From a virus: 34,211 bases of DNA. The notes beneath the pieces are model-generated. The model was not told where the DNA came from. It saw nothing but the letters and a program-made list of their open reading frames with translations, and did not search any database. The DNA is taken from IMG/VR virus record IMGVR_UViG_3300037502_001401, positions 1-34,211 of that record. One strand, 5' to 3'. Positions within the stretch are counted from its first letter, which is position 1, and each line of letters starts with the position of its first letter. The position numbers and the translations under genes are program-made. This document shows positions 2,165 through 34,211 of the stretch, in pieces.

Positions 2165-2316
2165 GTGCCACAAGGCAGGCCAGAGGCATGTGCCTTATGG
2201 CAGTCCCTTACTGGTATGCCCACGGACGGACGGACGGACGGACTTACGGACGTAGTAGTTACTTCCGTAGGGATATGACTCTTAGTCACGCGCGCGAGCA
2301 AAGGCGATTCCGATGA
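2161..2316 (+). CDS. Small translationally coupled ORF, unknown function
   Basis: This frame of 51 codons starts at an ATGA overlap with the preceding stop and ends at an ATGA overlap with the next start, so ribosomes could pass through it. The product is basic and rich in Arg and Tyr, with no recognisable fold. It contains five GGAC units (2224-2243), read as an HGRTDGRTYGR stretch. Base composition is less biased than in neighbouring genes, so it may be a weak coding sequence or a spacer kept open for coupling. Confidence 0.45.
   Translation: MSATRQARGMCLMAVPYWYAHGRTDGRTYGRSSYFRRDMTLSHAREQRRFR
2224..2243 (+). repeat. (GGAC)5 tetranucleotide tandem repeat
   Basis: Five exact GGAC units lie head to tail inside the small frame 2161-2316. 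Because the unit length is not a multiple of three, gain or loss of a unit would shift the frame and uncouple the downstream gene. A short inverted repeat (TACGGA 2245-2250 and TCCGTA 2264-2269) follows. Confidence 0.8.
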
Positions 2317-3242
2317 CACTTCACGCCGATTGCGCCACCGCTTGCCGCCGTGGCGAGGACCAAATCCCGTGCCGAGTCGTCGGTGGATGCGGCGTCGAGT
2401 GGGCGCCCGTGTGCGTACTTTGCACCCGATCCCTGCACGACGGCCACGTCTGCGGACCCTGCGGATACAGGATCAGCCGCGACCTCGACGCCATCCTGGA
2501 GCTCACCGCGCAGGCGTTCACCCAGGTTGACCGCCCCAATCGCCCCGGCTCCGGCCGCTCCGTGCCGTCATCGCGTCCCCCGCTCGTCGTCGAGGCACTA
2601 GACCCCGAACTGGCATCCGTCCGGCTCATCGCCGACGACCCATCCTCCGACGTGCCACTCCTGGTGCTCCTAGAGGACTGGGAGCGCATCATCCGCGAGG
2701 ACCGGGGAATGGCGCCCTATGGCATGGCCTCAGAGGCGCGCCTCGCCGCCACCGGCCCACTCCACGGCGCCTCCTGGGCCAGACACACCCCCGTCACCCT
2801 GACCGGCGTAATCCGCTTCCTCCACGCCGTCCATGACTGGGTCCTCACCGAGCCCAGCTTCGACATCGCCGAATACGCCCGCCAGATACGCCTCTGCCGA
2901 CGCGCCGTGTCCCGCTGGGACGCCGACCTCGCCGAGCCCGGCTGGCGCGTGCCCTGCCCCACCGCCACCGACGACGGCGAGTGCGGCCAGGTGCTCAAGA
3001 TCAGCCGTGGTGCGGAGTCGGTCTACTGCCGAGCCTGCGGCCGGGAGTGGGAGATCACCCGCCTCCTCGCCGTCGCCGGACGCGACGCCGACGTGTGGGT
3101 CGACGTGGAGGCCGCAGCCACAATGGCCGGAGTCCACGAGCGCACCATCCGCAAATGGGTCGCACGAGGCAAAGTCCGCAAGCGCGGACAGCTCGTCCGC
3201 ATCCTTGACATCCGCGACTACGCGACCACGTTAGGGGCTTGA
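2313..3242 (+). CDS. Zinc-finger and helix-turn-helix protein, likely DNA-binding (actinophage type)
   Basis: The 309-residue protein has an N-terminal cysteine-rich module (about residues 7-51, with CVLC and CGPC pairs), a helical middle, a second cysteine module (residues about 215-243: CPTATDDGECG then YCRACGREW) and a C-terminal MerR/excisionase-like helix-turn-helix (EAAATMAGVHERTIRKWVARG) followed by a basic strand. Such proteins sit at the end of early operons in actinophages and probably bind DNA, but no activity is established by sequence alone. The start overlaps the previous stop (ATGA). The stop codon lies inside the -35 element of the next promoter. Confidence 0.68.
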   Translation: MTLHADCATACRRGEDQIPCRVVGGCGVEWAPVCVLCTRSLHDGHVCGPCGYRISRDLDAILELTAQAFTQVDRPNRPGSGRSVPSSRPPLVVEALDPELASVRLIADDPSSDVPLLVLLEDWERIIREDRGMAPYGMASEARLAATGPLHGASWARHTPVTLTGVIRFLHAVHDWVLTEPSFDIAEYARQIRLCRRAVSRWDADLAEPGWRVPCPTATDDGECGQVLKISRGAESVYCRACGREWEITRLLAVAGRDADVWVDVEAAATMAGVHERTIRKWVARGKVRKRGQLVRILDIRDYATTLGA

Positions 3243-24983: not shown

Positions 24984-25112
24984 ACCTAGGGATTGATTCC
25001 CTCAGTCCCTAACGTAAGAGTTACGGACATAAACCCGCGTCGCTAATCACTTTTCCGACACGCCGTGATGTCAGCCAGGTGTGCCACTCTCACCTGCGGG
25101 GAGGTATCACCT

Positions 25113-26288
25113 GTGCGTATCGGCTCACTCTTTAGCGGCTACGGCGGCCTAGACATGGCCGTCAACTCAGTCTTAGGCGGCTCTGTCGCTTGGCACGTCG
25201 AGTACGACAAAGCGCCATCCCGCATCCTCGCCCACCACCACCCCGACGTACCCAACTACGGCGACGTTACCCAGGTGGATTTCACGACCATTGAACCCGT
25301 CGACGTACTGACAGGCGGCTACCCATGCCAGCCATTCAGCCACGCTGGCCTGCGGAAAGGCACCGACGATGAGCGACACCTGTGGCCTCACGTCCTGCGA
25401 GCCATTTGCGAGATGGGACCGCGACTCGCAATCTTGGAGAACGTCCGCGGCCACCTCTCTTTGGGATTTGGAACTGTCCTCGCTGACCTTGCCAGCGTGG
25501 GGTGGTCTGCACGATGGGGAATTGTGCGAGCATCAGACGCCGGAGCTTGCCACCAACGTGCTCGACTATTCATCGTTGCCTACCCCAGCGGCGATACCTG
25601 GGGCGAGCGACCTCAACTTCCAAGTGTCAGGGGATGGCAGGACGAAGCCCAACAAGCTGGGGTGGGCCATCGGGGAAATGCTGCCGACGCCGACAACGGA
25701 CGACGCCGGCAATATCACCAGGGAGAGCGGGGCGTTTCAGTCGCTGACCAGATCGGTGCAGATGCTCCCGACACCAGCCGTAAACGACATGGGCGAGGGC
25801 AAGACGCTGGAGTGGTGGGACGACTGGGCACCCCGTCAGAAGTCGTCGGACGGCAGGCCAGCCCCGCATGGCAGGTGGCTGGCGATAGAGGCACTGAGGC
25901 TGCTGCCCACGCCGACGACCGAGCACTCCTCGGGCGGCTACAACCCCGCATGGGGGCACGGGATGACGCTGCTAGATGCAGCCAAGGAAATTGTGGGACA
26001 GCCTGGGGCGACTACGGTCCCGCCATCTCCCGATGGGAAAGCATCCTCGGCCGACCCGCACCCTCACCTACTGAGCCTGGACGGACTGGCGCACCCCGCC
26101 TAGCCCCACGTTTCGTGGAATGGATGATGGGCCTGCCAGACGGGCACGTCACAGACCCCGCCATCGGGATCAGCCGCAATGACCAACTCAAGGCGCTGGG
26201 CAATGGCGTGGTGCCCCAGCAAGCGGCCCTCGCGCTCAGGCACCTACTGCCCCAGTGGGCAGTTCACCCCGTTGACGTAGTGCTCTAG
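25113..26288 (+). CDS. DNA (cytosine-5-)-methyltransferase
   Basis: The 391-residue enzyme has the m5C motifs in order: SLFSGYGGLDMA (I), the catalytic PCQPF with Cys72 (IV), ENVRGHL (VI), HQRARLFIVA (VIII) and NDQLKALGNGVVPQQAA (X). It transfers methyl from S-adenosylmethionine to cytosine, probably shielding phage DNA from host restriction; no partner endonuclease is seen. GTG 25113 has GGGGAGG eight bases upstream and starts right at motif I. Between motif VIII and FVEWMMGLPDGHV the target-recognition region is rich in Arg, Gln, Ala and Asp and shows weak G/C third-position bias because another frame (25369-26103) is read through it. Confidence 0.9.
   Translation: MRIGSLFSGYGGLDMAVNSVLGGSVAWHVEYDKAPSRILAHHHPDVPNYGDVTQVDFTTIEPVDVLTGGYPCQPFSHAGLRKGTDDERHLWPHVLRAICEMGPRLAILENVRGHLSLGFGTVLADLASVGWSARWGIVRASDAGACHQRARLFIVAYPSGDTWGERPQLPSVRGWQDEAQQAGVGHRGNAADADNGRRRQYHQGERGVSVADQIGADAPDTSRKRHGRGQDAGVVGRLGTPSEVVGRQASPAWQVAGDRGTEAAAHADDRALLGRLQPRMGARDDAARCSQGNCGTAWGDYGPAISRWESILGRPAPSPTEPGRTGAPRLAPRFVEWMMGLPDGHVTDPAIGISRNDQLKALGNGVVPQQAALALRHLLPQWAVHPVDVVL
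25369..26103 (+). CDS. Overprinted 244-residue protein inside the methyltransferase gene (+1 frame)
   Basis: A 245-codon frame lies wholly within the methyltransferase gene. It begins MSDTCGLTSCEPFARWDRDS and carries four copies of a (L)PTP motif (SLPTPAAIPGASD, MLPTPTTDDAGN, MLPTPAVNDMGEG, LLPTPTTEHSSGG) plus EWWDDWAPRQKSSDG, which look like a real repeat protein and not noise. In a hand count of 40 codons from 25561, 75% end in G or C in this frame against 52% in the methyltransferase frame. I recall similar MSDTCG/PTP-repeat proteins lying by phage dcm genes, but know no function. An AAAGG site 9-13 bases before ATG is weak. Confidence 0.72.
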   Translation: MSDTCGLTSCEPFARWDRDSQSWRTSAATSLWDLELSSLTLPAWGGLHDGELCEHQTPELATNVLDYSSLPTPAAIPGASDLNFQVSGDGRTKPNKLGWAIGEMLPTPTTDDAGNITRESGAFQSLTRSVQMLPTPAVNDMGEGKTLEWWDDWAPRQKSSDGRPAPHGRWLAIEALRLLPTPTTEHSSGGYNPAWGHGMTLLDAAKEIVGQPGATTVPPSPDGKASSADPHPHLLSLDGLAHPA

Positions 26289-26408
26289 GGCGCGTCGAAT
26301 AACCTCAGACACGCTGACGCCATCGTCTGCCGCTTTGGCCTGAGCATCACGCCATAGGTCATCATCTACTCGAACATTGCGGAGCGGTGTCTTTGGCGCG
26401 TTAGGCAT
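26244..26408 (-). CDS. Ribbon-helix-helix (CopG/Arc-like) DNA-binding protein
   Basis: The 54-residue protein shows the RHH pattern: a strand TPLRNVRVDDDLW, helix RDAQAKAADDG and helix VSVSEVIRRALEHYV. RHH dimers insert the strand in the major groove, often at tandem palindromes. It is the last gene of a leftward three-gene operon whose promoter carries twin palindromes, so it may repress its own operon. The ATG at 26408 overlaps the previous stop by 8 bases; the gene end overlaps the methyltransferase end by 45 bases on the other strand. Confidence 0.82.
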   Translation of the reverse strand: MPNAPKTPLRNVRVDDDLWRDAQAKAADDGVSVSEVIRRALEHYVNGVNCPLGQ

Positions 26409-26580
26409 TGGTAACTCCCGTGAAGAGCAGGGCGCCATCGCCGCACGCGGGGCAGACCTCGTGGACGCCGATAATGGCGGCAAGTCCAGCGGAGTCGGTC
26501 ACGGTGTGCCCGCAGGCGCGGCACTCAATTTTGGTGGCGGTGTAGGTGACGCCGTAGTCATCAATGAATGTGGTGGTCAT
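26401..26580 (-). CDS. Small zinc-ribbon protein
   Basis: The 59-residue protein has two CxxC knuckles 26 residues apart (CRACGH and CPACGD), a classical zinc ribbon, with a beta-rich N-terminus (TTTFIDDYGVTYTATKIE). It starts at an ATGA overlap with the gene before it, so it is the middle gene of the leftward operon. Partner and role unknown; zinc ribbons of this size commonly bind nucleic acid or protein. Confidence 0.72.
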   Translation of the reverse strand: MTTTFIDDYGVTYTATKIECRACGHTVTDSAGLAAIIGVHEVCPACGDGALLFTGVTNA

Positions 26581-26741
26581 CGTGCCACCTCCACAGCCTC
26601 GTCGCGGGTCGCGTAGGCGCCGACGTACCTGTCGGCATCGTCGAACACGGTCCACTTGCCCGCGTCATTCATGCGGACGATCCATCCACGAGTGGTGATG
26701 CCGTACTGCTGATCCTTGCCCCAGTTGACTGTGGCGTTCAT
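26577..26741 (-). CDS. Small beta-rich protein, first gene of the leftward operon
   Basis: This 54-residue protein (NATVNWGKDQQYGITTRG, WIVRMNDAGKWTVFDDAD, YVGAYATRDEAVEVAR) alternates strands and ends in a helix, like small DUF-type modules in phages. A GGGGAGG site lies five to six bases before ATG 26741. The longer frame up to 26798 runs through the promoter and is rejected. Function not recognised. Confidence 0.68.
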   Translation of the reverse strand: MNATVNWGKDQQYGITTRGWIVRMNDAGKWTVFDDADRYVGAYATRDEAVEVAR

Positions 26742-26758
26742 GGTGCCTCCCCTAGTTG

Positions 26759-26798
26759 GTGTAGGTACACCGTATGCCCGTGTAGGTACACCCGTCAA
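26759..26798 (-). promoter_or_regulatory. Leftward promoter with two identical palindromic operators
   Basis: On the minus strand TTGACG (26793-26798), an 18-base spacer and TACGGT (26769-26774) form a promoter. GTGTAGGTACAC occurs twice, at 26759-26770 and 26780-26791, centres 21 bp apart (two helical turns). One copy fills the spacer, the other overlaps the -10 end and start site. This is the layout of a tightly repressible promoter; the RHH protein of the same operon is the natural candidate ligand. Confidence 0.75.
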
Positions 26799-26871
26799 GC
26801 CTAATCAGGAAATGTCCGTTTCGGGCGAGTCCCGATGTCACTAACCGCTGCGTTGCGATCCGCACAACCCC

Positions 26872-26894
26872 AGCCCCCGAGAGTCGGGGGCTTT
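26872..26894 (+). terminator. Rho-independent-type terminator before the lysis genes
   Basis: A 9-bp perfect stem (AGCCCCCGA 26872-26880, TCGGGGGCT 26884-26892) with a GAG loop is followed by TTT. It would stop rightward transcription coming from the tail and methyltransferase genes, or attenuate a lysis transcript starting near 26800. Confidence 0.75.
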
Positions 26895-30110: not shown

Positions 30111-30472
30111 GCAGACAGTCGCGCCAGCCGCAGCGCCGCCGACGCCGCGGCCAGCGCCGCCTCCGCGGCCTCCAGCGCCACGCGCGACCGCTCGGGAGTG
30201 TCGCCGGGCGTGTCTGCGGGAGTGTCGCCGCGAGTGTCGGTCGGCGTGTCGGATGGGGGCTCGGGAGTGTCGCCATCGCGTAGGGCGAGGCCATTTGCGA
30301 CATACCAATCCGCAATCCGCTTATCGACCGCCTCGCGATCTAGGGGAAGAAAGCCCCACTTCTCAAGCTGGAGCGCCGTCTCCCGATCCCCGGCGAACAG
30401 TCCCTCGACAGGCTTGCCCGCCTCACGGGCCATGCTGAGAGCCTGCCGGACGTCCGTCCTCGCGTATGGCAT
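30107..30472 (-). CDS. Leftward protein with DTP repeats, unknown function
   Basis: The 121-residue protein has an N-terminal helical domain (YARTDVRQALSMAREAGKPV, QLEKWGFLPLDREAVDKRI, WYVANGL), a repetitive acidic middle of DTP units (DTPTDTRGDTPADTPGDTPE) and an alanine-rich C-terminal helix. An AGGAGGGGAG site lies about 9 bases before the ATG. It is the only leftward gene in this half and faces the early operon across the control region, the place of regulators in many phages; no DNA-binding motif is visible. Confidence 0.65.
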   Translation of the reverse strand: MPYARTDVRQALSMAREAGKPVEGLFAGDRETALQLEKWGFLPLDREAVDKRIADWYVANGLALRDGDTPEPPSDTPTDTRGDTPADTPGDTPERSRVALEAAEAALAAASAALRLARLSA

Positions 30473-33985: not shown

Positions 33986-34211
33986 TCCACATGAGGGTCC
34001 TAGGCCATCCCGCGCCGCAAGGCTCTAAGCGTCACGTCGGTCGCGGGATCATGGTCGAGGCCAGTAAGAAGGTCACACCCTGGCGCGAGGCCGTCGTCTG
34101 CGAGGCGCAACGCCACGGTCACGTCGGACTGCTACTCGACGGCCCCGTGGACGTGTTCTTGACGTTCTTCTTCCAGCGACCCCAAGGCCACTATCGGGCC
34201 AGCGGAGAGCT
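33982..34211 (+). CDS. RusA-family Holliday junction resolvase, 5' part (continues at base 1)
   Basis: This is the N-terminal part of the RusA-type gene, continuing at bases 1-350. It begins at GTG 33982, overlapping the recombinase stop (GTGA); an ATG three codons on at 33991 is the alternative. The segment RVLGHPAPQGSKRHVG then VEASKKVTPWREAVVC is the typical RusA beginning. Together with RecT and SSB it completes a recombination set. Confidence 0.88.
   Translation, partial: MIHMRVLGHPAPQGSKRHVGRGIMVEASKKVTPWREAVVCEAQRHGHVGLLLDGPVDVFLTFFFQRPQGHYRASGE
34085..34211. repeat. Terminal direct repeat (assembly overlap), right copy
   Basis: Exact copy of bases 1-127. Treat it as the same DNA; unique genome length is 34,084 bp. 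Confidence 0.9.

Follow-up and report, generated by a model that had tools for sequence, protein, structure and literature searches.

Twin palindromes at a leftward actinophage promoter are candidate operators of a ribbon–helix–helix protein, two residues of which appear to predict the middle letters of its sites

The viral record IMGVR_UViG_3300037502_001401, analysed here over its whole stretch of 34,211 nucleotides (the window), carries a small leftward cassette forming an island among rightward phage genes and placed, as the preliminary description had stated, between a DNA methyltransferase gene and the lysis genes. Since the window begins and ends with an exact direct repeat of 127 bp (positions 1–127 and 34085–34211), it very likely represents an entire genome, 34,084 bp in length, though the record is classed as linear in IMG/VR. 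The cassette consists of three real open frames on the minus strand, joined by start/stop overlaps: a first gene of 54 aa (26577–26741), whose product resembles DUF2188 just below the Pfam cut-off, a second of 59 aa (26401–26580), which contains two CxxC pairs in a zinc-ribbon-like arrangement and has a relative in contig L236, and a third of 54 aa (26244–26408), which encodes a ribbon–helix–helix (RHH) protein. The overlapping frames and the RHH_1 match of the last of them bear out the proposed three-gene operon ending in an RHH protein. The convergent methyltransferase gene on the plus strand (25065–26288), a frequent neighbour of the cassette, overlaps the RHH gene tail to tail over positions 26244–26288. 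Just before the lysis genes, a perfect GC-rich hairpin (AGCCCCCGA-GAG-TCGGGGGCT, 26872–26892) is followed by a short T run; it is terminator-like by eye and was not scored as a terminator by the scan. Elsewhere in the window, short repeats (CGGGAGTGTCGCC, 30193–30274) lie in a leftward frame (30472–30107) encoding a DTP-rich repeat protein.

By sequence, the product of the last cassette gene belongs to the ribbon–helix–helix (MetJ/Arc) family, matching Pfam RHH_1 (1.2e-06, above the cut-off) and PHROG 6506, an 'Arc-like repressor' (1.2e-15), and is a candidate autorepressor. An AlphaFold2 model of the monomer displays an extended N-terminus followed by helices at residues 16–28 and 33–46, and its top fold matches are Arc (1b28 and 1par) and other RHH proteins; the E-values are weak, which is unsurprising for a chain of only 54 residues. 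A profile search against solved sequences returned AvtR, the N-terminus of SeqA, VapB26, NikA, Arc and omega, in most cases weakly. The predicted recognition residues Leu9, Asn11 and Arg13 are encoded on the minus strand at 26382–26384, 26376–26378 and 26370–26372, respectively.

Upstream of the first gene, GTGTAGGTACAC occurs in exactly two copies in the window, at 26759–26770 and 26780–26791, 21 bp apart start to start, as had been noted before for their centres. Their earlier designation as identical palindromes holds as regards identity, which extends to 13 bases (GTGTAGGTACACC), and only partly as regards symmetry, which is confined to the arms (GTGTA-GG-TACAC), the central GG being non-symmetric. 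This pair is the only one of the 53 palindromes of the 5+2+5 form in the window to be repeated within 40 bp, and accounts for two of the four GTANNTAC cores found over the 34 kb. On the minus strand both copies read GTGTACCTACAC and are interleaved with a leftward promoter: downstream of the −35 hexamer TTGACG (26793–26798), the first predicted operator (26780–26791) fills the 18 bp spacer preceding the −10 hexamer TACGGT (26769–26774), while the second (26759–26770) covers the end of the −10 hexamer and the expected start site, transcription probably starting near 26762. The complete order is CTTGACGG-GTGTACCTACAC-GGGCA-TACGGTGTACCTACACC, followed by the ribosome-binding site GGGGAGG of the first cassette gene (26746–26752) and by its ATG at 26741, so that the predicted operators (26759–26791) overlap the promoter of the operon encoding the putative repressor (26741–26244). 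A generic sigma-70 scan left the leftward promoter at the pair unscored, and its −10 hexamer is weak; despite this, the hexamers and the two copies stand where the preliminary description had placed them, and the recurrence of the same layout in 82 loci, described below, reinforces the assignment and argues against a fit by chance.

Among close relatives, the operators and the −10 hexamer are conserved while the flanks diverge. Operator and RHH gene are retained in contigs L044, L029, L067 and L072, and L048 and L079 display the same order of methyltransferase, RHH gene, operator and holin as the window; in L044, L048, L029 and L046 the sites likewise overlap the promoter. L046 retains the operator, one small gene, the RHH gene and the methyltransferase at another genomic location; the unit therefore moves as a cassette. 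Since the first gene varies between relatives, the regulator and its sites constitute the constant part. A ACATCGGGACTCGCCCTAATCGGACATT-like block upstream of the −35 hexamer (26810–26839, minus strand) is conserved in the window, L044, L048 and L029 and is absent in L046. Overlaps of the RHH and methyltransferase genes similar to that of the window are found in Madiba, prophiT46-2 and L168–L172.

A scan of viral contigs for two copies of GTGTANNTACAC separated by 5–13 bases yielded 93 stretches, against about one expected by chance according to our own estimate for 20 fixed bases; the outer GTGTA and TACAC were imposed by the search pattern and are no evidence of their own conservation, while the search left the central dinucleotide and the flanks free. 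The same promoter grammar surrounds the pair in 82 loci from about 80 actinophage or provirus contigs, with TTGCG or TTGACG immediately preceding the first box, TAnnGT extending into the second one, and a ribosome site and start codon beyond it. The boxes are mostly spaced 21, 23 or 25 bp start to start, and the central bases are mostly equal between the two boxes of one locus. When all frames were searched with the window RHH protein, an RHH gene was found in 85 of 94 IMG/VR loci with the pair and within 600 bp of the boxes in 79 of them, which answers favourably the earlier call for conservation of the repeat beside RHH genes in relatives; in nine loci none was detected within the stretch examined. 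The gene is divergent and immediately upstream in 76 of 97 placed cases, and lies inside the controlled operon in the other 21, the window included. A parallel scan of bacterial genomes gave 63 hits, with an RHH gene within about 430 bp in 33 of 35 actinobacterial hits and in none of the 28 from other phyla. A reversed-pattern control returned zero. Among 50 records the motif is mostly restricted to one pair; two large records, those of L021 (99 kb) and L054 (98 kb), contain 19 and 12 copies of GTGTANNTACAC, respectively, spread over the genome, which suggests that operators of this kind serve a regulon there. In a Spirochaetaceae contig (L151:5655–5834), copies of GTGTACGTACAC recur at multiples of 21 bp away from any RHH gene; they probably form an unrelated tandem repeat. 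No paper describing the twin sites was retrieved by literature searches for the 12-mers or for actinobacterial phage repressors of the RHH type.

In Arc, residues Gln9, Asn11 and Arg13 contact operator bases (PMC12645479), and residues 9 and 11 of the RHH proteins studied here are the counterparts of the first two. Over 94 distinct RHH/operator combinations (residues in window numbering), mutual information with the central dinucleotide NN was highest, among about 40 columns, at residues 11 and 9, and Arg13 was present in 93 of the 94 proteins. After matching for overall identity, residue 11 ranked first and residue 9 second, with odds ratios of 8.5 and 7.0, respectively. The two residues together predicted the operator class in 60 of 72 leave-out cases from which relatives at least 60% identical had been excluded, whereas the nearest neighbour judged on the remaining columns did so in 34 of 72. 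Asn11 is mostly associated with GG, His9/Ser11 with CG, Gln11 preceded by Ala9 or Pro9 with GC, Thr9/Pro11 with GC, Ala9/Pro11 with CG and Ala11 mostly with TA; the Leu9/Asn11 combination of the window pairs with GG, as its class predicts. As judged from covariation at residues 9 and 11 together with the conserved Arg13, alternate residues of the β-strand would thus read the bases. The operator class follows descent in part; on a tree computed with columns 9 and 11 left out, few branches of which are well supported, it switches at least 19 times. A tree-based independent-pair test was not significant, the resolved pairs being too few.

The association was also approached in reverse, using 140 loci fetched by the RHH protein alone. 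An exact GTANNTAC pair was present near the RHH gene in 28 of them, while control DNA from the same loci contained two pairs in 352 kb. Wherever the pair occurred, Asn11 was always accompanied by GG/CC and Ala11 by TA (GA in one box), and the code fitted in all 16 new distinct cases, counted with known contigs left out and duplicates taken once. In three more loci the pair is present with one box or both slightly altered. The other 112 of the 140 PHROG 6506 relatives, including the whole Thr9/Thr11 class, are without the exact pair; the operator can therefore not be assumed from the protein family alone, and the rule linking residues to site centre covers part of the RHH family. The Thr9/Thr11 class, a large group of TPTRTIRV proteins (L237–L307), is devoid of twin boxes. 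Gordonia phages Hedwig, Kenna and Ecliptus (L161, L162 and L167) encode RHH relatives and carry other palindrome-like repeated words at promoters (GGTGCCAATGCACC and GGTGTGGGCACACC), which are possible further operator classes.

Cultured phages display comparable arrangements. In Majeke and prophi104-2, both with Ala11, two copies of GGTATATACC lie 12 bp apart at the corresponding position of the promoter; in prophiT46-2 the duplicated box is TGTATATACA. Majeke gp56, prophiT46-2 gp24 and Madiba gp72 are annotated as Arc-like, RHH or DNA-binding proteins, and in these three phages, as in the window, one or more small genes and the RHH gene form a leftward cassette with twin palindromes at its promoter, which in Madiba and prophiT46-2 also abuts a DNA methylase gene. 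They differ from the window in that their boxes are TGTATATACA or GGTATATACC and lie 12 bp apart. The three records carry no annotation of a regulatory site.

It is highly probable that the twin repeats are the operators of the RHH protein encoded at 26408–26244 and that this protein represses its own cassette, much as the preliminary description had proposed for a self-regulating RHH protein on twin palindromes; at the level of sequence, conservation, linkage across genomes and the covariation of residues with bases give this reading strong support. RHH dimers, presumably one per box and perhaps binding cooperatively, would insert their antiparallel β-ribbon into the major groove of each GTA-NN-TAC box, with Arg13 reading the outer bases and residues 11 and 9 the central dinucleotide (GG in the case of Leu9/Asn11). 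As the boxes occupy the −35/−10 spacer and the start site, protein bound to them would block RNA polymerase, and the last product of the operon would in this way turn down its own cassette. Taken over more than a hundred related phage genomes, the data suggest that two residues of the repressor predict the two middle letters of its sites. It is rather likely that within this one actinophage RHH family residues 9 and 11 form a code setting the centre of GTA-NN-TAC, that swapping them would switch the phage whose cassette is repressed, and that cross-regulation groups among co-resident prophages could be deduced from sequence.

The preliminary description had also suggested a role in lysogeny or immunity control, in which case the RHH protein would be the immunity repressor of the phage and the twin operator its main switch. 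The apparently complete genome encodes a tyrosine integrase and the window contains no HTH_3 (CI-type) repressor domain, for which reason this role is retained as an unlikely one, and the 12 and 19 copies in two other contigs are what a wider regulon would show. A MerR/HTH_17-like domain at 2313–3242, considered as a CI-like repressor, falls below the cut-off, and an XRE repressor suspected by eye in L068 has no Pfam match. An immunity repressor would be expected to act on lytic promoters and to lie with integrase, Cro or excise genes. Against such a role, only one promoter in the window carries the sites, and it does not lie by the integrase gene; the cassette is flanked by methyltransferase and lysis genes, and in L046 its position has changed. 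Indeed, the temperate mycobacteriophages Majeke, Madiba and prophiT46-2 carry the cassette, likewise as a leftward island, together with a separate annotated immunity repressor located 9–14 kb away, near the integrase/excise genes. The suggestion of lysogeny control is thus unsupported, and from the island position and the distance to the immunity repressor in these phages the cassette is read as a self-contained, self-limiting and moron-like unit, which may be expressed in lysogens.

The frequent vicinity of a methyltransferase gene raises the question of whether the sites mainly control this enzyme, with leftward transcription interfering with the convergent overlapping gene to a degree set by the RHH protein. 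Such interference is possible, since the overlap is common to several relatives: the tail-to-tail arrangement of the window recurs in L048/L079, L028, L046, L168–L172, L211, Madiba and prophiT46-2, and a divergent methyltransferase gene stands beside the operator in L189, L190 and L204. However, such a methyltransferase is missing from the neighbourhood of the pair in many loci, and we consider this explanation improbable. A target that always leads to late genes was likewise discarded, as the large terminase gene, found in a minority of contigs, occurs in various orientations. Binding of the sites by a host factor or another phage protein, with the RHH gene linked for other reasons, would account for the nine of 94 loci in which no RHH gene was detected in the stretch examined, but would explain neither why an RHH gene is the common neighbour across very different gene contents and in both orientations nor why the site centre tracks two base-contacting positions of the RHH fold; it is very improbable. 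The sites are short and the generic promoter scan was empty at this position, as might be expected of a chance repeat or of a constraint on coding sequence; conservation amid diverging surroundings and the same layout in about 80 contigs make this barely credible, and chance was ruled out by the paired-site scan, the comparison of phyla and the reversed-pattern control.

Tiny 'Arc-like repressor' genes without a known target abound in phage and prophage genomes. Protein, operator and promoter are now paired in over a hundred genomes of one such group, and two residues appear to set the specificity. Both the protein–DNA recognition code and the cross-talk between prophages of one host become directly testable, and the group is a source of small repressor/promoter pairs, candidates for orthogonal control in Streptomyces and other actinobacteria.

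Repeated inverted-repeat operators are also a feature of the phiC31 repressor of Streptomyces phages. The repeated word there is ACTCACGTGAGT, to which type the window sites do not belong; a comparison with the conserved inverted repeats of phiC31 was abandoned as the motif differs, and a search of phiC31 for TGTANNTACA-type sites found none. Arc of phage P22 is likewise a small phage RHH protein with the same recognition positions (PMC12645479) and an operator located within a promoter. Arc binds, as a dimer of dimers, a single 21 bp operator whose adjacent half-sites are separated by about one turn, whereas the family described here has two separate palindromic boxes 21–25 bp apart (12 bp in the mycobacteriophages). 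Arc acts in the immunity I region of P22, unlike the RHH cassette, which is located apart from the immunity genes in those phages in which the latter are known. CopG, omega and RHH antitoxins autorepress their own operons through repeated sites overlapping the promoter. Unlike these systems, the window cassette contains neither plasmid copy-control genes nor a recognised toxin, but DUF2188-like and zinc-ribbon-like genes; like them, it carries repeated sites that overlap the promoter of an RHH operon, and its RHH protein gives profile matches to omega, NikA and VapB26.
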